This document shows positions 2,676-60,958 of a DNA stretch of 64,000 nt, in pieces. Source of the DNA: Gammaproteobacteria bacterium. Its GTDB lineage: Bacteria > Pseudomonadota > Gammaproteobacteria > Burkholderiales > Burkholderiaceae_B. Under the pieces are notes generated by a model that searched no databases, had not been told where the DNA came from, and saw nothing but the letters and a program-made list of their open reading frames with translations. Numbering within the stretch: position 1 is the first letter of the stretch; each line of letters starts with the position of its first letter. The position numbers were made by a program, and so were the translations under genes. The stretch spans positions 1 through 64,000 of the forward strand of contig JAURJT010000014.1 in assembly GCA_030832095.1 (NCBI GenBank). The letters are read 5' to 3'.

Positions 2676-3305
2676 TCAGCTGGCCAGCCAAGGATGCGCG
2701 TTGTGATGCTGTCGCTCAAAGTTTTCGATGTCGCTAGCATAGCTCAAGGTCAAGGCGAGTTCATCAACCCCTTTGAGCAAGCATTCATGCCAAAAGGGAT
2801 CCATGGTGAAGGTGTATTGCATGCCCAGACCAGGGGCCTGTACGGTGCAGGCACTCAGGTCAATCGAGATCTCGCGGATTGCTGCATTAGAGTCGCTCGA
2901 GTCGAGTAATGCCTGACGTACCACTGCCAATGATTTGGCCTCAAGGCGGATTGGTAGCAAGCCATTTTTCAGACAGTTATTAAAAAATATATCGCCAAAA
3001 CTTGGCGCCAGAATGGCTCGAATCCCAAAGTCTGATAAACAGTACACGGCTCCTTCGCGCGACGAGCCGCAGCCGAAGTTTTCGTCTGCAACCAAAATTT
3101 GTGCGCCTTGAAACGGCGGGCGGTTCAGGATGAAATCTGGTCTTGGTGCGCCGTGGTCATCAAAACGGAGGTCGTGAAATAAATAGGTTTTGTACAATTC
3201 ATCACGGTTCTTTTTCAGGAATCGCGCCGGAATAATCTGATCAGTGTCGACGTTTCGCCCCTCAAGAGGAGCAGCGAGCGCCCGTAAGTGCGTAAAGGCT
3301 TGCAT
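2676..3305 (-). CDS. leuD: 3-isopropylmalate dehydratase small subunit
   Basis: A 209-residue swivel-domain subunit of isopropylmalate isomerase, which converts 2-isopropylmalate to 3-isopropylmalate in leucine synthesis together with LeuC. The sequence carries GRNVDTDQIIPARFLK, the substrate-recognition stretch NFGCGSSREGA and the LeuD-typical ending SDIENFERQHHNAHPWL. It begins one base after the leuC stop, so the two subunits are made together. No leuB follows, unlike common leuCDB arrangements, so a leuB elsewhere or a paralogous isomerase role remain open. Identity as the small subunit is secure. Confidence 0.92.
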   Translation of the reverse strand: MQAFTHLRALAAPLEGRNVDTDQIIPARFLKKNRDELYKTYLFHDLRFDDHGAPRPDFILNRPPFQGAQILVADENFGCGSSREGAVYCLSDFGIRAILAPSFGDIFFNNCLKNGLLPIRLEAKSLAVVRQALLDSSDSNAAIREISIDLSACTVQAPGLGMQYTFTMDPFWHECLLKGVDELALTLSYASDIENFERQHHNAHPWLAS

Positions 3306-3306
3306 A

Positions 3307-4731
3307 TTATTGTTGACCCATTAAGGTGCGTACGTCGGTAAAGTGACCTGTGACTGCCGCGGCTGCAGCCATGGCTGGGCTGACAAGGTGTGTACGTACC
3401 CCGGGGCCCTGGCGCCCAACAAAGTTTCTGTTAGAGGTTGATGCGACCCGTTCATTTGGCAAAGCCAAGTCACCGTTTATGCCAACGCACATTGAGCAAC
3501 CCGGTTCGCGCCATTCAAGCCCCGCCGCTTGAAAAACTTTATCGAGTCCCTCGGCTTCAGCGGCCTGCTTAATGAGCATCGACCCTGCCACCACGATGCC
3601 CGGCACAACAGCACGGCGACCACGCAGGATGTCTGCCGCCATGCGCAAATCAGAGAGGCGACTATTGGTGCATGAGCCGATAAAGACGCGATCAATTTTG
3701 ATCGTGCTCAAGGCGGTGCCGGGAGTCAGATCCATATAAGCAAGTGCGGCCAGCGCAGCTTGTTTAGCATGTGGATCAGAGAGGGCTGAAGGATCAGGGA
3801 CCAGGCCGTCAATAGCAACGCCAGTGTCTGGGGTGGTGCCCCAAGTGAGCATCGGTGATAGTTGTGCAACGTCGATACTAAGCGTTTGATCAAAATGGCA
3901 GCCGTCATCGGAGGGCAATTGTTGCCATTCGCGTAAAGCCTGATCCCACGCCGAGCCTTTAGGTGCAAAGTTACGACCGTATAAATAATTAAACACCACG
4001 TCGTCAGCGGCGATGAGCCCCGAGCGTGCGCCGGCTTCGATCGTCATGTTACACATGGTCAGACGTTCGTCGAGCGATAGCCATTGCAGCGCGCTGCCAG
4101 TGTATTCAACGGCGAAACCCACTGCGCCCGCGACGCCTAATTTTGCGATGACAGCCAAGATGATATCTTTACCACCCACTCCCGCAGCCGGCTTACCGTT
4201 GAGCTCGACGCGCATTTGCAAAGGCTTGGCCTGCCAGAGGGTTTGAGTCGCCATGATGTGCATGCTTTCTGACTGCCCAACTCCGAACGCCATTGCGCCC
4301 ATCGCACCATGTGTCGAGGTATGACTATCGCTGCAGGTGATAACAGAACCGGGTAAAGACATACCCTGTTCAGGGCCCACGACGTGAACAATGCCCTGCT
4401 GCGGGTCTTTGATCGAAAAATAGTGTGCGCCCGACCATTTCATGTTGTCGTCAAACTTAAGAATCACCTCTTTGATTTCAGCGGTGATGGCGTCGTTTGG
4501 ATCTCGACTAGTGGTTGGCACGTAGTGATCGGCAACACCAAAAATTTGTTTGGGATTGCGAATCGTTAGGCCGCGCGCGCGCAGATCTTTGAACGCATGA
4601 AATGACCCTTCGTGAATAATGTGTCGGTCGATGTATAGCAAAGACGGGCCAGCAGTGCGAGGCATGACGACATGTTGGTCCCAGATTTTTTCAAAGAGCG
4701 TGCGCCGCGACTGAGGTTGAGAAGGTTTCAT
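3307..4731 (-). CDS. leuC: 3-isopropylmalate dehydratase large subunit
   Basis: A 474-residue aconitase-family subunit that carries the 4Fe-4S cluster. The cluster ligands are visible as Cys in VFIGSCTNSR and the pair in GCSMCVG; SDSHTSTHGA and TSNRNFVGRQG are further family marks. Length matches LeuC (about 470). The ATG at 4729-4731 overlaps the TGA of the upstream cation transporter gene (4728-4730), an ATGA junction that suggests translational coupling. An operon partner with metal-transport ability next to an Fe-S enzyme is suggestive but not proof of a link. Confidence 0.92.
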   Translation of the reverse strand: MKPSQPQSRRTLFEKIWDQHVVMPRTAGPSLLYIDRHIIHEGSFHAFKDLRARGLTIRNPKQIFGVADHYVPTTSRDPNDAITAEIKEVILKFDDNMKWSGAHYFSIKDPQQGIVHVVGPEQGMSLPGSVITCSDSHTSTHGAMGAMAFGVGQSESMHIMATQTLWQAKPLQMRVELNGKPAAGVGGKDIILAVIAKLGVAGAVGFAVEYTGSALQWLSLDERLTMCNMTIEAGARSGLIAADDVVFNYLYGRNFAPKGSAWDQALREWQQLPSDDGCHFDQTLSIDVAQLSPMLTWGTTPDTGVAIDGLVPDPSALSDPHAKQAALAALAYMDLTPGTALSTIKIDRVFIGSCTNSRLSDLRMAADILRGRRAVVPGIVVAGSMLIKQAAEAEGLDKVFQAAGLEWREPGCSMCVGINGDLALPNERVASTSNRNFVGRQGPGVRTHLVSPAMAAAAAVTGHFTDVRTLMGQQ

Positions 4732-5713: not shown

Positions 5714-6982
5714 TTAGCCAAAACGGGTTGGTCTAAACGGGTTCAAATCGATTTCGGGCTGAAGGCCCACAGCAAGTTGAGCCACTATACGCCCAGTTCT
5801 AGCTGATCCTACCAGTCCCACATGACCGTGGCCGTAGGCATGAATAATATCCTTGCTACCAGAGGCCAAGCCAAGGCAAGGCAGCCCATCAGGGGTGCTA
5901 GGGCGGCGCCCCATCCAGATTTGGATTTGTTCTGGAGCCAGATTACGCGGCAGAGTCGGATACAGCGTTAGCAAGTGATCGCGCAAAATTTCGGCGCGAC
6001 GCCAGTTGGGCGTGTCGTCAGCCTCTGCAATTTCAACTTGACCGGCCACGCGTAAGCCTTGGTTCATTTGCGTCACGATCACTTTACAGTCAGCAAACAT
6101 GGTGGGCAGGCGTGGCCCGGCTTCGACGCCCGATACGACCGCGTGGTAGCCACGCTCAGTCTCTAGCGAGACCTTGTCGCCAGCCAGGGCTGCAAAGGCC
6201 TTTGAGCGTGCGCCCACGGCAATCACAGCCTTGTCACAGGCGACCTCTCCACCTTCGATCAACACGGCTTTCAGCGAGCCGCGCTCGATTCGAAAACCGG
6301 TTGCGCGGGCGTGCAATAACGTCGCCCCGCGAGTTTGTGCATGGCGGATCAAGGCCGCAGTGTAAGCTCCAGGGTTGCGACAGCTGCCGGTCTCGGCGAC
6401 GAAGACGCCAAAGGTGTATTTGGGGTCAAGGTCTGGCTCAAGGTCGGCTAGCGCGGTTGCGTCGAGTTCTTGCCAACTGACCCCTTCTTTTCGGCGAATC
6501 TCCCAAGCCTTGGCATCGAGTAGAAAGTGTTCACGCGATAAAAAAGCGTGAAGCAAGCCGTTGCGTTCGATCAGTTCACCGACCCCCGCTTGTTGTGCCA
6601 TGTGTTGATGCAGGGCTGGCGCGCCGGCCAGCAGAGTGCGCAGCGCGTGGGCGGTGCGTTCGATTTTTGGATAGGTCCAGGCCGCGGTCAGGTAGCGTAG
6701 CAGCCAGGGTAGGGCGCGTGGAAAATACCGCCAGCGCACTGAGAGGGGACCAAGTGGGTCTGCCAGCCACCTCGGGACTTGCTTCCAAATGCCCGGTGAG
6801 GCAGGGGGTAAAACAGAGTGTGAAGATAACCATCCAGCGTTACCGTAGCTTGAGGCCTGCGAAGCACCGGGGGTTTCTGGTTCGATCAAGGTGACTTTCA
6901 GTCCGGCTTCTAGGCAATGGAAGGCGCTTGCTGCCCCAATAATACCGGCGCCGATGATGACAACGTGGTCTGGTTTGCTCAA
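5714..6982 (-). CDS. DadA-like FAD-dependent amino-acid oxidoreductase
   Basis: A 422-residue DAO-family flavoprotein resembling the small subunit of D-amino acid dehydrogenase, which oxidatively deaminates D-amino acids at the inner face of the membrane. It starts with the dinucleotide-binding motif VVIIGAGIIGAASA (residues 7-20), has SYGNAGWLSSHS near residue 45, ETERGYHAVV near residue 275, and closes with GRRPSTPDGLPCLG and AYGHGHVGLVGSARTG, both typical of DadA-like proteins. It lies 38 bases upstream of the CDF gene on the same strand and may head the run to leuD. A paralogue is present at 40033-41292. The true substrate may be another secondary or N-methyl amine. Confidence 0.82.
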   Translation of the reverse strand: MSKPDHVVIIGAGIIGAASAFHCLEAGLKVTLIEPETPGASQASSYGNAGWLSSHSVLPPASPGIWKQVPRWLADPLGPLSVRWRYFPRALPWLLRYLTAAWTYPKIERTAHALRTLLAGAPALHQHMAQQAGVGELIERNGLLHAFLSREHFLLDAKAWEIRRKEGVSWQELDATALADLEPDLDPKYTFGVFVAETGSCRNPGAYTAALIRHAQTRGATLLHARATGFRIERGSLKAVLIEGGEVACDKAVIAVGARSKAFAALAGDKVSLETERGYHAVVSGVEAGPRLPTMFADCKVIVTQMNQGLRVAGQVEIAEADDTPNWRRAEILRDHLLTLYPTLPRNLAPEQIQIWMGRRPSTPDGLPCLGLASGSKDIIHAYGHGHVGLVGSARTGRIVAQLAVGLQPEIDLNPFRPTRFG

Positions 6983-7124
6983 AAAAGATCCCTCTGGCGC
7001 TAGCGTAATCTGTAGTGGTGAATCTTAGCATTTGCGCCTTCGCGCGCAGCACGCAAAAACGTGGTGCTCTCGGGTCAAAGCCCCGTTATGATGTCGATAT
7101 TGTGTTTCCTTTGGATTTTGCTAC

Positions 7125-8048
7125 ATGAAAGCTGTATTTATTGACGCCAATGGCAGTTTGGCCGACGTGGCGCGCCGCTTGCACCAACCCGACGACATTG
7201 CCTTGTTGGTCAACGAACAACCCGACATCACCCCTGAGCAGATTCCAGGTGTCATGGGTGACGCTGAAATCCTGATCGTCGACCACACGGCGGTACCCGT
7301 TGAGATCGCGCAACAATGCAAAGGCCTCAAGCACGTGGTGTTTTTAGGTACAGGGGCGCGCTCTTACATGAACCCCGAAGCGCTTGCCAAGATTGGTATC
7401 GAAGTTCACATTATTAAGGGCTACGGCGATACCGCGGTTGCTGAGTGTGCCTTTGCCCTAATGTGGGCTAGCGCCAAGGGCTTTGCCCGGATGGATCGCG
7501 GCATGCGTGCCGGGCAGTGGTTGCGTACAGATGGAATTGAGTTAACCGGTAAAACCTTGGGCTTAATCGGCTTTGGCGGTATCGCCGCCGAAATGGCTCG
7601 CTTGGCGCTCGGTGCCGGCATGAACGTGATTGCGTATAACCGTAGCCCTAAAACTCACGCTGGCGTGCGCTTTGCGGACTTGGACACGGTATTGGCAAGT
7701 AGCCACGTGTTGTCAGTGCATTTGTTGCTCAATGACGATACTCGCGGCTTTATTTCGGCCGAGCGCATTGCAAAAATGCGCGATGGCGTTATTTTGATCA
7801 ACACGGCACGCGGCGCGGTCATTAATGAACAAGCACTGATCGCTGGGCTGACCTCTAAAAAAATTGGTCACGCCGGCCTTGATGTGTTTGATATCGAGCC
7901 TTTGCCTGCCGATCACGCCTTCACCAAAATCGAAAACGTCACTCTGTCGGCCCACTCAGCGTTTCGTACGCCTGAGGCAAGCGACAACTTGATTGAGGCC
8001 TCACTGAACCATTGCCGCCGTATTTCTGGGCAGGGTCAACAGCGCTGA
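7125..8048 (+). CDS. D-isomer-specific 2-hydroxyacid dehydrogenase family protein
   Basis: A 307-residue NAD(P)-dependent enzyme interconverting 2-hydroxy and 2-keto acids. The Rossmann glycine motif is GLIGFGGIAAEMA. The catalytic triad can be placed: Arg in INTARGAVIN, Glu in DVFDIEPLP and His in LSAHSAFRTPE. It is divergently arranged from the FAD oxidoreductase, with a 142-base gap holding promoters for both. The product cannot be narrowed to a substrate. Confidence 0.87.
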   Translation: MKAVFIDANGSLADVARRLHQPDDIALLVNEQPDITPEQIPGVMGDAEILIVDHTAVPVEIAQQCKGLKHVVFLGTGARSYMNPEALAKIGIEVHIIKGYGDTAVAECAFALMWASAKGFARMDRGMRAGQWLRTDGIELTGKTLGLIGFGGIAAEMARLALGAGMNVIAYNRSPKTHAGVRFADLDTVLASSHVLSVHLLLNDDTRGFISAERIAKMRDGVILINTARGAVINEQALIAGLTSKKIGHAGLDVFDIEPLPADHAFTKIENVTLSAHSAFRTPEASDNLIEASLNHCRRISGQGQQR

Positions 8049-8191: not shown

Positions 8192-9184
8192 ATGTTGCAA
8201 TGGTCTAAAAAAGTGGTGTGTTTGTTCGCTGGGTTGATGCTGAGCGCAGGAGCCCTTGCCCAGTCCGAGGCGTGGCCAAGTCGGGCGATCACGATCATCA
8301 ACGGATTTCCAAATGGTGCGGGCACTGATCTATATGCCCGTAAGCTTGGTGAGGCGCTAACCGCTGTTTTAGGCGTGCCGATTGTGGCAGACAGCAAGAC
8401 AGGGGCTGGGGGTAACCTGGCGTCTGATTTTGTGGCGCGCGCGCAGCCTGATGGCTACACATTTTTACTAGCCACGGCCGGGACGCACGCCATTAACGCA
8501 GCGCTGTACAAAAAGCTAAGTTTTGATGTCGAGCGAGACTTTACGCATATTGCGATTTTGGGTGACGTGCCAAACGTGCTTTTAATCAATACTAAAAAAC
8601 ACCCCACGATTAAAACCTGTGCCGAGTTGCTCACGTTGATTCGTGCCAACCCAGGCAAACTCAATTATGGCTCGACGGGCAATGGTGCCTCGACCCACCT
8701 GTCGGCTGCGCAGTTTGCCAGCGCAGCTAAAGTCGATATCGTGCACGTGCCTTATCGCGGACAGGGCCCCGCGATGACCGCCTTACTGGCGGGCGACGTC
8801 GACCTCTTCTTCAACCAAAGCGCGCCGGCAATCGCCTCGATCAAAGGTGGTTTAAATATCGGTTTAGCTGTCACCACTCCTGCCGCTTTAGCCGCTTTGC
8901 CCAGCGTGCCGCCGATGGCGCAGGCCTGTAATTTGCCCGGCTTTGAGAGTAGCACTTGGTATGGTTTGCTGGCACCCGCAAAGTTGCCCGCGGCGATTGC
9001 TGCCAAAATGAGCGCGGCGGTCGCCCAAGTCATTTCAACGCCAGAGTTCAAAAAATGGCTGACTGACACCCAAGGAATCACCCCTGCGCAAGATCCTAGC
9101 CCAACGGCGTTTGCAAAGATTCACAAGGCTGATATTGCCAAATGGGCTGAAATTGTGCGTATTTCGGGGGCGCAAGTTGATTAA
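8192..9184 (+). CDS. Bug/TctC-family tripartite tricarboxylate receptor (1)
   Basis: A periplasmic binding protein of 330 residues that captures a small carboxylate or similar polar solute. The start at 8192 is preferred over an in-frame ATG at 8144 because AAGGAG at 8179-8184 is properly spaced and a signal peptide (MLQWSKKVVCLFAGLMLSAG, cleavage near ALA-Q) then begins the protein. Family landmarks: WPSRAITIINGFPNGAGTD, DGYTFLLATAGTHAIN, HVPYRGQGPAMTALLAGDVD. The usual P-PGG of the first ligand loop is replaced by F-P-N-G-A-G, so ligand contacts may differ from its relatives here. No TctA/TctB genes are adjacent. Confidence 0.9.
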   Translation: MLQWSKKVVCLFAGLMLSAGALAQSEAWPSRAITIINGFPNGAGTDLYARKLGEALTAVLGVPIVADSKTGAGGNLASDFVARAQPDGYTFLLATAGTHAINAALYKKLSFDVERDFTHIAILGDVPNVLLINTKKHPTIKTCAELLTLIRANPGKLNYGSTGNGASTHLSAAQFASAAKVDIVHVPYRGQGPAMTALLAGDVDLFFNQSAPAIASIKGGLNIGLAVTTPAALAALPSVPPMAQACNLPGFESSTWYGLLAPAKLPAAIAAKMSAAVAQVISTPEFKKWLTDTQGITPAQDPSPTAFAKIHKADIAKWAEIVRISGAQVD

Positions 9185-41397: not shown

Positions 41398-42393
41398 CTA
41401 ATCGACTTTAATGTTACCTGCCTTGATGACAGTTCCCCACTTGTCGAATTCTCCTTTAACGTAACCGACAAACTCAGCCACACTCATACCACCAGCTTCA
41501 GCGCCTTGCGCTTTTAAGGCGTTGGCCAATTCAGGGGTCTTTACCGCCTGGTTAAGCGCAACGCTCAGTTTCTTCACAATTTCGCCAGGCGTTTTGGACG
41601 GAGCAAAAATACCGTACCAATTATCGACGCTGTAACTTGAGCCTCCTGACTCAAGAACCGTTGGCGTATCCGGAAACTCTGGCATGCGAGTTTTGCCAGA
41701 GACTGCGATTAAATTTACTTTGTTTGATTTGATTAAACCGAGTACAGGTGGCGCGGTCACAAACATCAGTTGGACTTGCCCGCCCATTAAGTCAGACAGC
41801 GCTGGGCCGGTGCCTTTATATGGTACATGCGTCCATTTCAAATTATTGATATTTTTAAATAATTCGCCAGATAGGTGTGTGATAGTGCCATTGCCTGCAG
41901 AGGCGACATTGAGTTCCCCAGGTTTCTGACGTGCGAGCGCCTCAATGTCTTTGATGGTTTTTGCTGAAAACCCAGGCGCTGAAATAATCATCATCGGTGA
42001 CGTCGCCACTACCCCGATAGGGGTCAAATCACTAACAGTGTTGTAGTTCAAGCGATATAAGTTCGGATTGACAGCAATTTCAGAGGTTGAACCTAACAGC
42101 AGCGTATAGCCGTCTGGGTTCGACTTGACGACAAATTCAGTTCCTATTGAGCCGCCGGCACCGCTGCGATTGTCTACGACAACTTGTTGCTGCAACACAT
42201 CAGAAAGTTGTTTGGCAATGATTCGACCAACGACATCAGACCCACCACCGGGCGGAAACGGAATCACCAGTCTCACAGGTTTTGTTGGCCAATCTTGAGC
42301 CTGAGCGACCAGATGAAAGTTGAAGGATAGCGCAACTAAGGAGAGCGCTAATTTTATAAAAATACGGATAGTCAGTGGCGCACATGCTTTCAT
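41398..42393 (-). CDS. Bug/TctC-family receptor (7)
   Basis: A 331-residue receptor that is last in the minus-strand run from the MaoC hydratase. Signal sequence followed by DWPTKPVRLVIPFPPGGGSDVVGRII; DGYTLLLGSTSEIAVNPNLYR; HVPYKGTGPALSDLMGGQV. It lies 38 bases after the ABC transporter ATPase gene. An operon carrying both an ABC importer and a Bug receptor is uncommon in my experience and may reflect two uptake routes for the same or related compounds. Confidence 0.92.
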   Translation of the reverse strand: MKACAPLTIRIFIKLALSLVALSFNFHLVAQAQDWPTKPVRLVIPFPPGGGSDVVGRIIAKQLSDVLQQQVVVDNRSGAGGSIGTEFVVKSNPDGYTLLLGSTSEIAVNPNLYRLNYNTVSDLTPIGVVATSPMMIISAPGFSAKTIKDIEALARQKPGELNVASAGNGTITHLSGELFKNINNLKWTHVPYKGTGPALSDLMGGQVQLMFVTAPPVLGLIKSNKVNLIAVSGKTRMPEFPDTPTVLESGGSSYSVDNWYGIFAPSKTPGEIVKKLSVALNQAVKTPELANALKAQGAEAGGMSVAEFVGYVKGEFDKWGTVIKAGNIKVD

Positions 42394-50629: not shown

Positions 50630-52099
50630 ATGCTTAGAGCACGCCAGACGATTCGAATTGGTATTGACGTTGGTGGGACATTCACTGACCTATTTTTGTT
50701 TGATGAAGCTTCGAGAAAAACCCTGCGCCATAAGCTTGCATCGACGCCAGATTTTCCGCACAAAGCGCCTATCCAAGGGATTCGAGAGATCCTGATTGCT
50801 GCCCAGGCGACGCCCGAGCAAGTGAAATTTGTAGGGTTAGGCACGACAGTGGCAACTAATGCCCTGCACGAGCGCAAGGGTGCGCTCACCGGACTAATCA
50901 CCACTCAGGGTTTTCGAGATCTTCTTGAGATTGGCAGGCAAAAACGGCCAAGTCCTTATGACCTGTTTGCACGCCGGACAAAACCCTTGATCAGGCGATC
51001 CTTGCGACTCGAGGTTGCCGAGCGGATTTCAGTCGATGGGCAGGTTCTCATCCCCATTGATAAGACTGAAATTTTGGCTACTGCGAACGAACTGGTTTCG
51101 CAAGGCGTACAAAGCATAGCGATTTGTTTTTTGAATTCATATATCAATCCAGTGCACGAGGAACGTACCGCACAGTTGCTTCGGCACCATTGGCCAAAGA
51201 TTTCAGTGACGTCATCGCAAGAACTCGTGCCTGAGTTTCGAGAATACGAAAGGCTTAGCTCGACAGTCATTAATGCCTATCTAATGCCCGTGATGCGTCA
51301 TTATCTAGAACAATTTACTGCTGAAGTCGAGGCGATGGGGATCACAGAGGCTCCGTTTGTGATGGCGTCTGGCGGCGGGATCGTGACGCCAGAGTTGGCA
51401 AGTCAACGGCCCATTGATACGCTACTTTCGGGGCCGAGCGGTGGTGTAAGTGCCACAATCCATCTTGCTGGTACCGGCGGCTATGCCGATTTAATTACGT
51501 TGGATATGGGCGGAACAAGCACCGAAGCCTGTGTCATTCAAGGCGGGCGAGCCAATATTGCTCATAGTCGCGAGATTAATGGCTTGCCGTTGAAGATTAC
51601 CGCTGCCGATATTCATACGGTGGGCTCGGGTGGCAGCAGTATCGCTTGGCTGGATGTGGGGGGAATGCTGCGTGTTGGGCCGCGCAGCGCAGGATCAAAA
51701 CCCGGGCCTGCTTGCTACGGTAGCCCCGGTGCCCATCCAACGATGACAGATGCGAATGTTGTACTGGGTCGGCTCAATCAGCATTATTTACTGGATGGTG
51801 CCTTGTCGATCGATGCCGCGCTTTCCTATCAGGCAATCGAAACGCATATCGCTCAACCTAAACAGATTACTGTTGAGCAGGCTGCCGCAGCAATAGATAC
51901 AGCATTAGTCGATCGTGCCGTTTTATGGCGACGAGTCGGCCTACGCGATCCCTTAAACATAACCCTCGGGTACCAACAGCAGCAGAACGCCACTTGCCAC
52001 AACTTTCTCAAGCAACAGAGGTCAAAGGGTACCCTCTATGCGTCAGTTCTAGCGAGAAAGTTAATCGAGTGTTGTGATAGAACATGCTTAACGGCTTAA
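50630..52099 (+). pseudogene. Truncated hydantoinase/oxoprolinase A subunit (hyuA-like)
   Basis: Residues 1 to about 425 match HyuA, an ATP-dependent ring-opening enzyme, with the ASKHA-type IDVGGTFTDLFLF, GLGTTVATNALHERKG, PEFREYERLSSTVINAYLMP, SGPSGGV, LDMGGTSTE and GSKPGPACYG motifs. The normal C-terminal part of roughly 200-250 residues, beginning with the sequence around the second domain and ending with a F-G-G-A-G motif, is missing: after about 51905 the protein runs into 63 residues with no resemblance to the family. The hyuB partner is also absent. The open frame is intact, so a short protein could still be made, but ATP-dependent catalysis is unlikely. Confidence 0.75.
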
Positions 52100-52999
52100 G
52101 AATAATAGGCATTGCTGAGCTGCGACTTTTGCTTCTTGGATGGCGTGTTCGAGCATGCCACCATACCCCTGTCTGACAGCGCCAGCGGCAAAGACATTTT
52201 GCATACTCGTCATAAGTTTGGTCGAAGTGATGATGTGACCGTCTTTGTCTCGTTCAATGTCGTCAGGTAAAAAATCGCTGGATGGTTTGAGTCCGATATA
52301 CGCGAACAACCCCGTGCAAGGGATGTGACAGGTGGTTTGATCAGCCAGATGTTTGACTTGCACGCCCTCAACCCCCGTTGTGCCAAAAATTTCTACGACT
52401 TCACACGAAGAGTGCACCAGTATTTTTTCATGCTGTGTCACGGCCTCAGTGAGATGGCTTTGCGCAGTGGGAGACTCGTGATGATGAATAAGATGCACTT
52501 GATGACAAAATTCAGTGAGTACAAGAGCTTCTTGAAACGCAGAGTCACCACCTCCGACGACAACGACTTCTGCATCCTGATAAAGCGGGCCGTCGCAATC
52601 AGCGCAATGTGAAATTCCTTTGTATTCAAAGGCAGTCTCTCCGGGCACGTTGAGTGCCTTTAACGTTGCGCCGGTCGCGATAATCACAGCCTTGGTTTGA
52701 TATGAATGTTGATCGGTCGTGAGCAAGAGCTGTTTGTTCGGCTGCGCGACAAGCCCAGTTACCATTTCAGAAAGTATGGTGGCTCCAGTGCGACTTGCTT
52801 GCATCATCAAGTCAGAGGCAAAGTCAATGCCTGAACCTTGGATAGCGCCATCGAGTTCGTTGATATTGATAATTAAGCCGCCAAACAGCTGGCTCTCAAT
52901 ATTGGCAACTCGCAGGCCGTGTCCCAGTAATTCGATAGTGGCCGATAAGCCAGTGACACCTGCACCAATGACAATCACGTCATAGTTGTCTGTCGTCAT
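52088..52999 (-). CDS. Thioredoxin reductase-like flavoprotein
   Basis: A 303-residue FAD/NAD(P) disulfide oxidoreductase of the low-molecular-weight TrxR type. FAD motif VIVIGAGVTGLSA, redox pair Cys132-x-x-Cys135 in GISHCADCDGPLY, NAD(P) motif VVVVGGGDSAFQEA, and C-terminal NVFAAGAVRQGYGGMLEHAIQEAKVAA; the usual A-G-D is A-G-A here, removing the conserved Asp that contacts FAD. It overlaps the hyuA-like end by 12 bases on the opposite strand. Proximity to a selenoprotein gene (3 kb) makes it an attractive but unproven electron donor. Confidence 0.84.
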   Translation of the reverse strand: MTTDNYDVIVIGAGVTGLSATIELLGHGLRVANIESQLFGGLIININELDGAIQGSGIDFASDLMMQASRTGATILSEMVTGLVAQPNKQLLLTTDQHSYQTKAVIIATGATLKALNVPGETAFEYKGISHCADCDGPLYQDAEVVVVGGGDSAFQEALVLTEFCHQVHLIHHHESPTAQSHLTEAVTQHEKILVHSSCEVVEIFGTTGVEGVQVKHLADQTTCHIPCTGLFAYIGLKPSSDFLPDDIERDKDGHIITSTKLMTSMQNVFAAGAVRQGYGGMLEHAIQEAKVAAQQCLLFLSR

Positions 53000-53100: not shown

Positions 53101-54336
53101 CTAAATGATTCCGGCCTCTTTAAGCTCTTGAATTTGTTGTAGCGATAAGTGTGCGAACCTCTCAAGAATTTCGTGTGTATGCGCACCAGGAATTGGGGCA
53201 GGCGTGTCATACGAGCTCGGTAATTGCCCAAATTTTATTGGAAACCCAGGCCCCGAGGCACCGATGGCTTGCCCAGACAAGGGGTTGACTAACGGCACAA
53301 TCATTTCTCGCTCGTGCAGTTGTTGCCATTGCAGGACTTCTTCGATGGAGCGAACTAAGCTACACGGCACGCCTACCTGATTTAGAATTGTGATGACTTC
53401 AGTTCGGTTGTATTGGGCAACCCAAGCTCCAACAATTTTGTCTATTTCGTGATTGTTTGAAATTCGCCAACTGGTCTGCAAAAGCTCGGGGCGCGTCCCT
53501 GCGAGAGCTGTTTGGCCCATGACGTCTAACAGGGCAAGCCATTCGCTGTGAGTTGCAGTGCCGATTACCAGCCATCCGTCTTTCGCCTCGTAAGTATTAA
53601 AAGGAGAGAAACGCATAATTCGATTACCCTGCCTTGCTTGAACGCCCAGCGCTTCGTAGCAGTCTATCGGTTCGTCAAACACCAGCGAAAACAGGCAATC
53701 AGCCATGGCCACGTCAATAGACTGACCTTCTCCTGTTTTTTCTCGATTAAATAACGCAGCGGTGATGCCGTTTGAGGCAAAGATACCAGTGATGGCGTCA
53801 GACATTGGAGTGGCTGCCTTCGCGGGTGGCCCCTCTGGGTCGCCCGACAGGCTCATCAAGCCCACCGCTGCCTGAACCATCAAGTCATAGGCTTTTGCGC
53901 TCTGATCGGGCCCAGTGGAACCGTAGCCTGTTAGGGCGCAGTAAATAATCCTGGGATTTACTTTTTTGAGCGTCTGATAATCAATCCCCAATCTTTTTGC
54001 TACGCCGACACTGAAGTTTTCGACAACGACATCTGCGTGAGTTACGAGTTGAAGAAAAATTTCTCGACCACGTTCCGACTTCAGGTCGATCGTAATTGAT
54101 TTTTTTCCTCGCGCCCGTTTTAAATATGCGAGCCCCATGTCGTGCTCGGTCTGACTAGTAAAAGAGACGCCCGCAGCGCCCGCATAGGGAGGGGCAAAAG
54201 CGATAGGGTCGCCAGTTTTTGGATCATCTATTTTTATAACTTCGGCACCCATTCCAGCTAAGATGAGAGTGCATTGCGGACCCGAAAAAAAGCGAGTTAA
54301 ATCCAATACGACAACGCCAGTCAGTATTTTTTTCAT
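53101..54336 (-). CDS. Class III CoA-transferase
   Basis: A 411-residue CoA-transferase with intact catalytic Asp180 (TPMSDAITGIFA). Family marks: LDLTRFFSGPQCTLILAGMGAEVIKID, RARGKKSITIDL, ENFSVGVAKRLG and LTGYGSTGP. It is divergent from the unknown-protein/UGSC operon with a 245-base gap holding the promoters, and ends 101 bases from the thioredoxin reductase-like gene on the same strand. Divergent pairing suggests shared regulation with the selenoprotein operon. Confidence 0.9.
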   Translation of the reverse strand: MKKILTGVVVLDLTRFFSGPQCTLILAGMGAEVIKIDDPKTGDPIAFAPPYAGAAGVSFTSQTEHDMGLAYLKRARGKKSITIDLKSERGREIFLQLVTHADVVVENFSVGVAKRLGIDYQTLKKVNPRIIYCALTGYGSTGPDQSAKAYDLMVQAAVGLMSLSGDPEGPPAKAATPMSDAITGIFASNGITAALFNREKTGEGQSIDVAMADCLFSLVFDEPIDCYEALGVQARQGNRIMRFSPFNTYEAKDGWLVIGTATHSEWLALLDVMGQTALAGTRPELLQTSWRISNNHEIDKIVGAWVAQYNRTEVITILNQVGVPCSLVRSIEEVLQWQQLHEREMIVPLVNPLSGQAIGASGPGFPIKFGQLPSSYDTPAPIPGAHTHEILERFAHLSLQQIQELKEAGII

Positions 54337-54581: not shown

Positions 54582-55622
54582 ATGGGCCCTTCTGGATTCA
54601 TCAGTGCAACGTACGAGGTGCAGGATGCGCTTGAGGCAAATGAGCTGTTTCAGCGTAACGGCTGGACTGACGGTTTGCCGATTATCGCACCGACCGAACG
54701 GGCTGTTTCACAATTTTTGGATGTCGTTCGGTTAAAGCCTGCCGATCTAATCGGCGTTGAGCCTGTTCGTCGTCGCGCGATTACGGCAGAGAAGGTGGCG
54801 ATTGCTGCAGTGATGGCTGGCTGTCTTCCAGAATATATGCCAGTGATTGTTGCGGTTATTCAAGCGATGTGTAAACCTGAATTTGGCATGCATGGCTGCA
54901 CCGCCAGCACCGGTGGAAGCGCGCCTATGCTGATTGTAAATGGGCCGATTCGGACGCAATTAGGTATGAACAGCTCGCATAATGCGTTGGCAAATGCGAG
55001 TCGAGCTAACGCCACGATCGGTCGTACAGTCAGATTATTTTTGCTCAATGTCTTGGGTGGTTATCCTGGTCAGTTAGATCGCTCTACCTTGGGACATCCG
55101 GGTAAGTTCACATTTTGCGTTGCGGAAGATGAAGAAGACAATACGTGGCTGCCGCTTTCGATAGAGAGGGGACTCGCCCCGGGCGAGTCCTGCGTGACGG
55201 TCTTGGCCGTTGAGTCGCCTCATCAAATCATGAATGAGTGGACACAAGATCCCAAAGAAATATTAGACACTTATGCAGCGGCCATTCGCTCAAATATGTT
55301 GACCTATTCGATCTGGGAAGGCAATTATGCGATGGTTATTGCCAAACAACATCGGCAACTTTTTATTGCGGCGGGTTGGGACAAGCGTATGATTCGAGAG
55401 TACATGTACGAGGTAGCGCAGGTTGCTCGTAAGGAATGGCGCACTGTTGGTAAGGCCGCCGTGGCCGGCAGAAAAGACGAAAACCGTATGTATCATGCGT
55501 TGCGCTCGCCGGATGATTTGTTGGTGGTTGCTGCGGGTGGACCTGCGGGGGGATTTGGTGTGATTGCTCCCCCTTGGTATGGCAAGAAATCGCTTGCTGT
55601 GACTCAGAAAATAGAAGTTTAA
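54582..55622 (+). CDS. Uncharacterised protein upstream of the UGSC selenoprotein
   Basis: A 346-residue cytosolic-looking protein with no signal peptide or membrane segment. I do not recognise an enzyme family. Visible features: an N-terminal WTDGLPIIAPTE segment, Cys81, Cys97 and Cys106, the latter in MHGCTASTGGSAPMLIVNGP, then MNSSHNALANASRANATIGR, GHPGKFTFCVAEDEE and a C-terminal LLVVAAGGPAGGFGVIAPPW. The Cys-containing, glycine-rich segment looks like a conserved core. It ends 23 bases before the selenoprotein gene on the same strand, so the two are probably co-expressed and may act in one complex. Function unknown. Confidence 0.75.
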   Translation: MGPSGFISATYEVQDALEANELFQRNGWTDGLPIIAPTERAVSQFLDVVRLKPADLIGVEPVRRRAITAEKVAIAAVMAGCLPEYMPVIVAVIQAMCKPEFGMHGCTASTGGSAPMLIVNGPIRTQLGMNSSHNALANASRANATIGRTVRLFLLNVLGGYPGQLDRSTLGHPGKFTFCVAEDEEDNTWLPLSIERGLAPGESCVTVLAVESPHQIMNEWTQDPKEILDTYAAAIRSNMLTYSIWEGNYAMVIAKQHRQLFIAAGWDKRMIREYMYEVAQVARKEWRTVGKAAVAGRKDENRMYHALRSPDDLLVVAAGGPAGGFGVIAPPWYGKKSLAVTQKIEV

Positions 55623-55645
55623 TTGGGTTTTAACGGAGAACTGGG

Positions 55646-56176
55646 ATGACAATAATCGTATTAGATCCGCGCTTGAGTGCAGAGGGCGAAGCACTTCGAC
55701 TGGCGCCTGCCGCCAGATCCCTGGAGGGGGCAGTGATTGGCATGATCGATAATGCAAAAATCGGGACTGAAAGGTACTTTGATTTTCTCGCAGAAATTTT
55801 GACTAAAGAGTACGGCGTGCGTGAATTTATTCGAGGCCGCAAACCTGATGCGACCCGCCCAGTCACTCCAGAGATGTTGGCCTCGATGAGTGGGGCTGAT
55901 GCGATTCTTTCTGCCATTGGCGACTGAGGGAGCTGCTCCTCGTGCAGTTTGCACGATGCGATTGCGGCCGAGCGCTTGGGCATTCCTGCTGTTGGGATTA
56001 TGACCGATCGTTTTGAAAGAAGTGCGAAGATTGTGGCCGATATGAATGGTTTGCCAGACTACCCATTTATCATGTTGACACACCCTGTCGCAAATAATAG
56101 TGATGAAGTTCTTAAGCAAAAGGCAGTCGATTCTGCCAAGCAGATCGTTGAATTATTAACGCAACGACCCGCTTGA
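55646..56176 (+). CDS. UGSC-family selenoprotein (in-frame TGA read as Sec94)
   Basis: A 176-residue protein if TGA at 55925-55927 is decoded as selenocysteine. The frame is open before and after it, and the sequence across the codon is GD-U-GSCSSCSLHDAIAAERLG, which is the defining U-G-S-C motif of a family I recall as UGSC-containing proteins in metagenomic selenoproteome surveys. The N-terminal part holds LSAEGEALRLAPAARSLEGAVIGMIDNAKIG; the C-terminal part (VGIMTDRFERSAKIVADMNG, then IMLTHPVANNSDEV) lies beyond the TGA. GGAG at 55635-55638 is well placed for the ATG. A bacterial SECIS-like hairpin follows the TGA. Function is unknown; U-G-S-C-S-S-C suggests a redox centre. Confidence 0.9.
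55925..55956 (+). promoter_or_regulatory. Bacterial SECIS element next to the Sec codon
   Basis: The mRNA just after UGA can form a perfect 7-bp stem: TCGTGCA (55940-55946) with TGCACGA (55950-55956), loop GTT (55947-55949). Counting the U of UGA as 1, the loop G and U are positions 23 and 24, exactly where SelB contacts the E. coli fdhF element as I know it. The bulged U17 of fdhF is not obvious here. Confidence 0.75.
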
Positions 56177-56241: not shown

Positions 56242-57228
56242 TTATTCGAGCTGTTGTACGCCAGAATCTTTAACCACCTTTGTCCATTTTTTTGTTTCTG
56301 ATTGAATGTACGAGGCAAACCATTCAGGTGAACTGCTTTTTAATTCAGCGCCAATCAGCTTGTCTTTAAAGCCAGGCTCGGCGATGATTTTTACGACGGC
56401 TTTGTTCAGCTCGGTGATGATGCCTTTCGGTGTGCCTGCCGGGGCGAGTAGCCCAGCCCAACCGACTGCTTCAAAACCCGAAAATCCAGCCTGTTCGACG
56501 GTGGGTAAATCAGGTAGCGCGCTCGCTCGCGTTAAGCTGCCCACGGCCATGGCTTTCAGTCTGTCGGCTTTTAAATACGGAATAATTAACGGACCTGTTT
56601 CAAACATCACTGAAGTCCGCCCTCCTAAAAGATCAGTGACGGCTGCCGGCGAACTTTTATACGGGATATGAGACATGTTGACTCCCGCGGTGGCCATAAA
56701 GAGTTCCATCGATAGGTGGTTGCTCGCCCCACTGCCTGCCGTGCCAAAGTTCACCTTGCCCGGGTGAGCTTTTAAATAGGTGATTAATTCTTGAATATTT
56801 TTCGCAGGTAACTCAGGATTCACGACTAAGAAAAATGGCACGATCAATGTTAACGAGATTGGCTCAAAATTCTTGACTGGGTCATAAGGCAGTTTTTTAT
56901 AAAGCGATGGATTGACAGCCAGACTTCCCGAGGAACCCATGAACAACGTGTAGCCATCCGCTGGCGCTTTGGCTGCGAGTTCGGTGCCGATAATACTCGC
57001 AGCCCCTGGTCGATTTTCGACATAAAAGCTTTGGCCATACATTTCGGTTAAGCCCGCTGCGATCAAGCGAGTGGCCTGATCGGTTGCTTGTCCTGCCTGA
57101 AACGCAACAATGATTTTTACCGGTCGATTTGGATATTTGTCCTGAGCGAACGCTTGATTTGAAAATTGCACTAGGCAGAGACCTAGCCCATTCAAAAATA
57201 GTAATATTTTTACGACGCTTCTAAACAT
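56242..57228 (-). CDS. Bug/TctC-family receptor (9)
   Basis: A 328-residue receptor with signal sequence ending near AFAQD. The first loop, VKIIVAFQAGQATDQATRLI, departs from P-P-G-G (F-Q-A-G-Q), and the second is DGYTLFMGSSGSLAVNPSLY; HIPYKSSPAAVTDLLGGRT has Ser-Ser-Pro where Gly-Lys-Gly is common. Ligand choice may thus be unusual. It stands alone between a terminator and a 369-base upstream gap. Confidence 0.9.
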   Translation of the reverse strand: MFRSVVKILLFLNGLGLCLVQFSNQAFAQDKYPNRPVKIIVAFQAGQATDQATRLIAAGLTEMYGQSFYVENRPGAASIIGTELAAKAPADGYTLFMGSSGSLAVNPSLYKKLPYDPVKNFEPISLTLIVPFFLVVNPELPAKNIQELITYLKAHPGKVNFGTAGSGASNHLSMELFMATAGVNMSHIPYKSSPAAVTDLLGGRTSVMFETGPLIIPYLKADRLKAMAVGSLTRASALPDLPTVEQAGFSGFEAVGWAGLLAPAGTPKGIITELNKAVVKIIAEPGFKDKLIGAELKSSSPEWFASYIQSETKKWTKVVKDSGVQQLE

Positions 57229-59971: not shown

Positions 59972-60958
59972 TTACTCGTCGCGAACGTTTGCCTCTTTAA
60001 TGACCCGACCCCACTTGGCAAGATCTTTGATCACAAGAGCGTCCATCTGAGCCGGTGTCATTGGCATCATGTCATAGCCATCCACGTTAATGCCTTTAAT
60101 CACTGCTGGGTCTTTCATCACCTCGTTAAATGCAGGTACGAGTTTTGCCATCACCTCGGCCGGCAGGCCTTTGGGGCCAACGATGCTAAACCAGATTGCA
60201 GCATCAAAGCCTTTGTAACCTGACTCGTCAAGGGTTGGCACATTGGGCAACATGACACTACGATTGAGAGACGTGACCGCTAGCGCCTTGAGGGTACCGG
60301 CTTCGATCTGGGTGGCCGCTGCACCTAACGACGAGAACAAAAAGGGTACGTGCCCGCCTAAGACTTCAACCACGGCTGGGTTGCCGCCTTTGTAGGGTAC
60401 GTGAGTGATGCCGAGGTTTTCAAGCTTGTTCAATTGCTCGCCCGCTAAATGACCGACACCGCCAATCCCCGAGGTGCCATAGCTCCATTTTGAGGGATCT
60501 TTTTTGGCCAACGCGATCAAGCCTTTAATATCTTTAGCTGCCGAATCCGGGCGCACCACAATGGCGGTGCCGCCGCCCGCAATCATGGCGATATTGGTAA
60601 AGTCTTTGAGTGGATCGTAGGCAAGCTTGCGCATGTTTGGCAAAATCACCATGGGACCTGAATCGGTGATATGCAAGGTATACCCGTCTGGGTCAGCCTT
60701 GGACGTGATGTCTAATGCGATCGAGGCGCCCGCACCGGGGCGGTATTCCATAATAAACGGCTGGCCGATGATTTTGGATGTGCGTTCGGCGATGGGGCGA
60801 ATCAGCTTGTCGGCCGCGCCGCCTGCTGTATAACCGATGATCATTTTGATTGGTTTGTTCGGGTATTGCGCTTGGGCGCCAGACGACAACGCCAACAGGC
60901 CGAGTACCGCAATTGCGGGTGCAATGATTTTTTTCAAACCGTTCGATATCTTCTTCAT
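59972..60958 (-). CDS. Bug/TctC-family receptor (10)
   Basis: A 328-residue receptor; signal peptide with core IAVLGLLALSSGAQAQ. Loops: IKMIIGYTAGGAADKLIRPI and PDGYTLHITDSGPMVI, then HVPYKGGNPAVVEVLGGHV. The first loop has G-Y-T-A-G-G, again a change from P-P-G-G. It is 85 bases from a VOC gene upstream on the same strand and may be co-transcribed with it. Confidence 0.92.
   Translation of the reverse strand: MKKISNGLKKIIAPAIAVLGLLALSSGAQAQYPNKPIKMIIGYTAGGAADKLIRPIAERTSKIIGQPFIMEYRPGAGASIALDITSKADPDGYTLHITDSGPMVILPNMRKLAYDPLKDFTNIAMIAGGGTAIVVRPDSAAKDIKGLIALAKKDPSKWSYGTSGIGGVGHLAGEQLNKLENLGITHVPYKGGNPAVVEVLGGHVPFLFSSLGAAATQIEAGTLKALAVTSLNRSVMLPNVPTLDESGYKGFDAAIWFSIVGPKGLPAEVMAKLVPAFNEVMKDPAVIKGINVDGYDMMPMTPAQMDALVIKDLAKWGRVIKEANVRDE

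Follow-up and report, generated by a model that had tools for sequence, protein, structure and literature searches.

The window, that is, the whole stretch of 64,000 nucleotides analyzed here, carries on its forward strand a gene for a 176-residue protein of the UGSC selenoprotein family (55646..56176), in which an in-frame TGA (55925-55927), when read as selenocysteine (Sec94), takes the first position of a U-G-S-C motif. The reading frame runs from ATG 55646 through 93 codons to this TGA and on to an in-frame stop codon, TGA 56174-56176, and with the first TGA read as Sec the two halves join as AIGD-U-GSCSSCSLHDAIAAERLG. A frame open on both sides of TGA 55925-55927 and membership of the family named for the U-G-S-C signature had both been claimed in a sequence-only reading of this DNA; the coordinates and the motif proved correct, and the family of UGSC-containing selenoproteins (PF24696, NF041046; Zhang and Gladyshev 2008, PMC2398784) was matched over its full length by the Pfam profile (E = 7e-49; residues 5-173/177, model positions 2-172/172), with 166.7 bits against a curated cut-off of 25. 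With U represented by C, the NCBIfam equivalog NF041046 (UGSC_fam) scored 121.8 bits, below its curated cut-off of 125, and because this cut-off was missed, the protein was filed under the Pfam family rather than the equivalog. A custom UGSC profile, built from sequences that included the window protein and its kin, matched the N-terminal half at 1.3e-25, the C-terminal half at 7e-31, and the whole protein at 1.3e-58. Sharing the full-length match, the UGSC motif, and a Sec or Cys codon with the family as presented in PF24696 and in the UGSC passages of PMC2398784, the window gene adds an ordinary member to a selenoprotein family that was already known.

The UGSC gene is preceded by GGAG (55635-55638), and its ATG lies 23 nt past the stop codon of an upstream gene on the same strand (54582..55622, 346 amino acids), which belongs to an unnamed, UGSC-linked family that we call DGLP after a conserved stretch of the protein. 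Divergent from this pair is a minus-strand gene for a family III CoA-transferase (CaiB/BaiF; 53101..54336, PF02515, 1e-110), and another minus-strand gene (52088..52999) encodes a thioredoxin-reductase-like flavoprotein that contains a CxxC motif. On the other side, a minus-strand gene for a TctC/Bug substrate-binding receptor (56242..57228, PF03401, 5e-70) converges on the UGSC gene; a second TctC receptor gene lies at 59972-60958 (minus strand; PF03401, 7e-68). The hydantoinase A gene at 50630-52099, the end of which overlaps the flavoprotein gene, has an early stop and a profile match covering 1-222/291, and is perhaps truncated.

We addressed the recoding of the TGA by searching the whole genome (G000; 94 contigs, 94.3% complete) for the selenocysteine machinery. 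Every one of selA, selB, selC, and selD, which the sequence-only reading had named as a check, was found: profile searches gave selA at 585 bits, selD at 423 bits, and two selB genes above the curated cut-off, and one tRNA-Sec with anticodon TCA was present. A second tRNA-Sec candidate on contig C8, also above the cut-off, was rejected as a tRNA-Ser by ARAGORN. Among 399 genomes from the order to which G000 belongs, 41 had UGSC above the cut-off; selA was above its cut-off in 39 of these compared with 69 of the 358 others (p = 1e-22), and selB in 37/41 compared with 68/358 (p = 6e-20). Among the UGSC genomes, selA above the cut-off was not found in G103 and G144 (the latter 84% complete), nor selB above the cut-off in G052, G059, G144, and G357.

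The UGSC homologues of the same order, among the matches listed, each contain one in-frame TGA. A scan of named genomes, the pattern of which demanded Cys and could detect Cys spellings alone, detected a Cys-coded motif at 58 loci, whose hosts include haloarchaea, actinobacteria, sphingomonads, Bordetella, and Advenella. In addition, a Myxococcales contig (L102) carries TGA in the matched UGSC domain and Cys in a second one; these two domains lie at 8426-8926 and 3044-3505, with a DGLP domain adjoining each. The Sec94 column was invariant in both alignments, A1 (10 rows) and A2 (61 rows), in which U was typed or read as C. With either TGA or Cys at the Sec94 codon of the homologues, as had been anticipated, we concluded that Sec and Cys interchange at precisely this codon.

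Behind the TGA, a bacterial-type SECIS hairpin is predicted on the forward strand (55940..55956), with a 7-bp stem free of bulges (55940-55946 / 55950-55956) and a GTT loop (55947-55949); a scan of the window against Rfam returned no match at the gathering score. We compared 73 Sec and 59 Cys forms, all of which had passed a filter for the motif and for conserved residues upstream and downstream of it. Relative to codon-preserving shuffles, the 45 nt that follow the codon had a mean folding z of -1.56 in the Sec forms compared with -0.26 in the Cys forms (rank test, p = 5e-12). In a stem of 8 pairs, formed by positions 12-19 / 23-30 downstream of the TGA, which were derived from the same sequences as were scored, 95.7% of cells were paired in the Sec forms and 68.2% in the Cys forms; column shuffles reached the observed pairing in 0/500 and 176/500 cases, respectively, and the loop starts with GU in 71 of the 73 Sec forms. 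The Sec set stems from a single order and partly from a single MAG, and its counts are not independent; hence, the comparison was repeated after thinning to below 60% protein identity (26 Sec and 22 Cys forms), where shuffles reached the stem in 0/1000 and 221/1000 cases and the mean z was -1.67 compared with -0.13. The hairpin of the window itself has a modest z of -1.31 and 7 of the 8 stem pairs. Neighbouring residues covary as the RNA stem needs (W with VH or IH; C with LH, VH, or MH; G with VL), so that the RNA seems to shape the protein. Conservation of the hairpin is seen among Sec forms and is lacking among Cys forms.

The in-frame TGA could instead be a real stop or an assembly error, leaving a pseudogene or two small genes. 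Ordinary gene calling does yield the 93-aa ORF only, and the list of open reading frames of at least 80 amino acids contained this first half and lacked the second; however, a TGA at the same codon in homologues of many genomes, the Sec machinery of this genome, and the retention of the hairpin in Sec but not in Cys forms leave this explanation scarcely credible. From the machinery, the relatives with TGA or Cys, and the Sec-specific hairpin together, we therefore concluded that the window gene encodes a UGSC selenoprotein, as the sequence-only reading had maintained. As far as sequence goes, the gene is shown to be a genuine member of the family, and we regard its identity and the recoding of its TGA as Sec as very highly probable.

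The second selB gene of G000 lies on contig C73, directly downstream of three genes, one a UGSC-DGLP fusion, one for UGSC, and one for DGLP; the window pair is on contig C77 and does not adjoin it. We constructed a tree of 79 SelB proteins, 37 from 33 UGSC genomes (33 of the 37 with selB, leaving out G212, G242, G301, and G330) and 42 from UGSC-negative genomes (42 of 68). One clade (SH-aLRT 93) comprised 34 sequences that covered all 33 UGSC genomes, and the other side of the tree (97), here type I, comprised 41 of the 42 UGSC-negative sequences and an additional SelB from each of G000, G267, and G181. The UGSC-type clade was therefore represented in 33/33 sampled UGSC genomes and clearly in 0/42 UGSC-negative ones; the SelB of UGSC-negative G036 stood at the base, and once one more sequence was added, the branch that divides the tree (98) placed it with the UGSC side. 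The UGSC label changed 4 times on the tree compared with 26.4 times in shuffles, and families f1 and f9 contain both kinds, so the pattern is not one of simple descent. At alignment position 606, in the last winged helix, K is present in 44/44 type I proteins, and mostly T, G, or N otherwise. In G267, with an estimated contamination of 0%, about 2.6 kb separate the UGSC-type selB from the UGSC gene. The clade also extends to a plasmid: the selB of Paracoccus pFER4, which stands there with selA, DGLP, and a UGSC gene containing a TGA, is placed within it. This selB is shortened (591 aa, no winged-helix match) with an IS5 element right behind, and so serves as evidence on history and not on function. 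A second selB per genome is likewise a feature of the selB* of Syntrophobacterales and Desulfobacterales; according to the account of selB* within PMC7609411, it goes with an unusual tRNA-Cys, whereas G000 has one tRNA-Sec and its second SelB goes with a selenoprotein operon.

We also surveyed FdhA, as a second client, in 30 chosen genomes. Sec FdhA was observed in 7/8 UGSC-negative genomes, 3/3 genomes with both SelB types, and 3/19 UGSC genomes where the UGSC-type SelB alone was seen, a class in which a second SelB may be missed, given that the SelB search was limited to three candidates in each genome. An unpaired U at position 14 is present in 10/10 FdhA hairpins of type-I-SelB genomes (several of them identical sequences), and the UGSC stem is without it. 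E. coli SelB requires such a bulged U. These results suggest that two SelB/SECIS pairings may coexist within one cell, and a separate SelB pairing for UGSC appears to us about evenly balanced. Judged by phylogeny, operon position, and hairpin type, the UGSC-type SelB on C73 probably decodes the window hairpin.

Alternatively, the two SelB types may record gene history only, a sel region having been transferred together with its selenoprotein, and either SelB would then read both hairpins. The three UGSC genomes with Sec FdhA and the UGSC-type SelB alone (G005, G090, and G263) fit this account, as do the loop position and GU letters, which are alike in both hairpin kinds, and the placement of UGSC-negative G036 on the UGSC-type side. 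The FdhA hairpin of G263, which is ambiguous, also counts in its favour. Against it, the FdhA hairpin of G005 folds without the unpaired U, and in G090 the letters permit the same bulge-less stem, although the best fold differs. Set against a purely historical account are also the consistency of the unpaired U in type-I-SelB genomes and the retention of the UGSC-type SelB in all three genomes that have both clients and a type-I SelB. We consider the historical account a real possibility, albeit a rather doubtful one.

The DGLP gene accompanies UGSC well beyond the window. In a context set of 100 loci (the window, one own locus, 58 loci from the Cys scan, and 40 Sec loci), 111 of the 113 UGSC domains have a DGLP domain within 600 nt on the same strand, before, after, or fused, with distances measured between profile matches; the two without are in L161, at a contig end, and in L168, where the distance is 3.5 kb. 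G000 itself has three UGSC and three DGLP. Counted along the 346-residue protein, D30-G31 and R148 occur in every sequence (117/117), E182 in 116/117, and C81 in 110/116. DGLP matched nothing in Pfam up to E 10 or in NCBIfam up to E 1, and searches of PDB sequences found no natural protein and one designed-protein match each; a fold search with a model of a UGSC-DGLP fusion gave matches mostly on the UGSC half. In records of named plasmids, DGLP is a "hypothetical protein" or unannotated among the matches listed (15 of 24 records), except in records where the match also overlaps a UGSC gene. DGLP is very probably an obligate-looking partner of UGSC, and the linkage and natural fusions strongly support the view that the two are halves of one enzyme. 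A fusion of UGSC with a domain named "Unknown_1" was noted in 2008, in the part of PMC2398784 devoted to UGSC, and this domain may be DGLP.

The family can also be strongly amplified. In MAG G293 (98% complete, 2% contamination) we counted 58 UGSC matches, some partial, of which 54 have an in-frame TGA that is the only stop in 51. Thirty loci were fetched; 15 passed the motif filter, with TGA at the UGSC codon in 15/15. Strain mixing as the source of these copies was rejected for the 34 domains compared (30 loci), which show a best mutual identity of at most 72%. The largest bacterial selenoproteomes, with all families counted, are given as 57 and 63 in the section of a review on this point (PMC13188914), so the UGSC family alone in G293 comes close to them.

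We then turned to the possible function of the pair. The predicted structure of the UGSC protein is a doubly wound alpha/beta fold (pLDDT 92.6) with Sec94 at a helix start, and its structural neighbours are receiver, lumazine-synthase, and B12-binding-type domains. A thioredoxin-like fold was suggested for UGSC in 2008 (PMC2398784, in its UGSC passages); thioredoxin was absent from the best 50 structural neighbours, which is no exclusion of that fold. Aligned by hhalign with five GrdB-like proteins (67.6%, E = 5e-5, about 70 columns), UGSC places Sec94 on their U/C column and C97 on a C column, and some UGSC members match GrdB, GrdF, and PrdB models weakly. The cut-offs of the GrdB/PrdB families (PF07355, TIGR01917, and TIGR04483) were missed, with gly_red_sel_B at 12 bits against 602, and the window protein had no PF07355 match at E 0.001. 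On these weak scores over some 70 columns, UGSC may be distantly related to the Sec domain of GrdB/PrdB, the selenoprotein B of glycine, sarcosine, betaine, and D-proline reductase. The two have in common a UxxC at the same place in a similar domain and E..GIP-V downstream, and the two-component build of GrdB/PrdB is also that proposed for UGSC/DGLP, but UGSC is much smaller. Grd, as characterized in parts of PMC10838667, has thioredoxin genes nearby in some loci and several substrate-specific paralogues, in which we liken it to UGSC. U94-x-x-C97 is a plausible Sec/Cys redox centre, as the sequence-only reading had proposed. A further observation in G000 concerns a GrdB/PrdB-like gene on contig C43 (L300; about 41520-41882, minus strand; PF07355, 2e-9) in which a UPLC motif contains an in-frame TGA, likely another selenoprotein of this genome, with a predicted hairpin weaker than the UGSC hairpins and different from them.

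The gene neighbourhoods provided additional clues. TctC genes were present in 38 of 40 UGSC regions compared with 7 of 19 control regions of the same genomes (p = 3e-6), a comparison in which the TctC queries, drawn from UGSC neighbourhoods, may favour the UGSC regions; the 40 Sec regions (21 genomes) were chosen by us among the matches listed, and the 19 controls (11 of the 21 genomes) were picked by coordinates alone. The difference for the CoA-transferase was marginal (11/40 compared with 1/19, p = 0.044), and enrichment of SDR, AMP-ligase, enoyl-CoA-hydratase, and acyl-CoA dehydrogenase genes was not significant (40 compared with 19 regions). Nor was that of thioredoxin reductase, found within 5 kb at 8/58 Cys and 3/40 Sec loci compared with 1/19 controls (17 kb). 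In three of five named plasmids, trxB lies about 2 kb or less from the UGSC/DGLP pair, the Acidovorax and Paracoccus plasmids being those without, and in the Arthrobacter plasmid trxB is accompanied by trxA. In L127 and L097, single frames immediately beyond the UGSC-DGLP gene, within 400 nt of its UGSC domain, match both thioredoxin reductase and thioredoxin, and are perhaps fused TrxB-TrxA genes. The flavoprotein encoded at 52088..52999 in the window is a possible electron donor.

From the fold, the GrdB alignment, the TctC enrichment, and the trxB and CaiB neighbours, we therefore proposed a GrdB-like, thioredoxin-linked enzyme. That UGSC/DGLP is a two-component selenoenzyme of this kind, acting on imported organic acids and having its own SelB/SECIS pair, seems to us fairly probable; the chemistry, drawn by analogy, is put forward tentatively. 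In this scheme, tRNA-Sec and a SelB reading the bulge-less GUN-loop hairpin would decode the UGA, TctC, TRAP, or ABC transporters near the pairs would import the substrate, the selenolate of Sec94 would attack an activated carbon of the organic acid bound with DGLP, by analogy with GrdB, C97 would resolve the intermediate, and a thioredoxin reductase/thioredoxin system would re-reduce UGSC; the paralogues may differ in substrate. Alternatively, UGSC could have a thioredoxin-like fold and serve as a general thiol/selenol oxidoreductase, for example in reducing peroxides or disulfides, with DGLP as a client or adaptor, for which the UxxC motif and the thioredoxin-system neighbours at some loci would be natural. 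The predicted doubly wound beta-alpha fold argues against this explanation, and dozens of paralogues in one genome together with the TctC enrichment favour substrate-specific catabolism; thus, we regard a general oxidoreductase as unlikely.

Taken together, the GrdB-like reading and the SelB results raise the possibility, which we advance with caution, that one cell may use two Sec codes, one SelB serving the bulged SECIS of FdhA and a second SelB clade serving bulge-less hairpins and travelling with UGSC/DGLP operons, also on plasmids, with one tRNA-Sec in common; UGSC/DGLP would then be a new class of thioredoxin-linked selenoenzymes for imported organic acids, with some fifty copies in one genome. 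UGSC was among the major selenoprotein families in the Global Ocean Sampling set, with 255 Sec sequences reported in the UGSC part of PMC2398784, and those passages make no mention of DGLP as a partner, of an associated SelB clade, of genomes with tens of copies, of a link to TctC, or of a fold other than thioredoxin. The novelty lies in the surroundings, where a selenoenzyme pair appears to have a decoder dedicated to it. The family gains testable handles: a partner that looks obligate, a system for import, a possible donor of electrons, and distant kin with known chemistry. With one family tied to a SelB clade and also to a type of hairpin, it becomes testable whether SelB/SECIS pairs can exclude each other in one cell.

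The plasmid records indicated that gene calling still loses selenoproteins. In the record of the IncP conjugative plasmid p2-T1 of Acidovorax sp. T1 (L310), where the UGSC gene has a TGA and a clean hairpin, the annotation covers no more than its first half, as a hypothetical protein ending at the TGA, and the DGLP frame is present but unannotated; the record of Paracoccus ferrooxidans pFER4 (L311) splits the UGSC gene into two hypothetical ORFs. In the Arthrobacter plasmid (L309), a gene annotated as phosphosulfolactate synthase (6692-7480) stands ahead of trxB-trxA-DGLP-UGSC and is a possible hint at the class of substrate.
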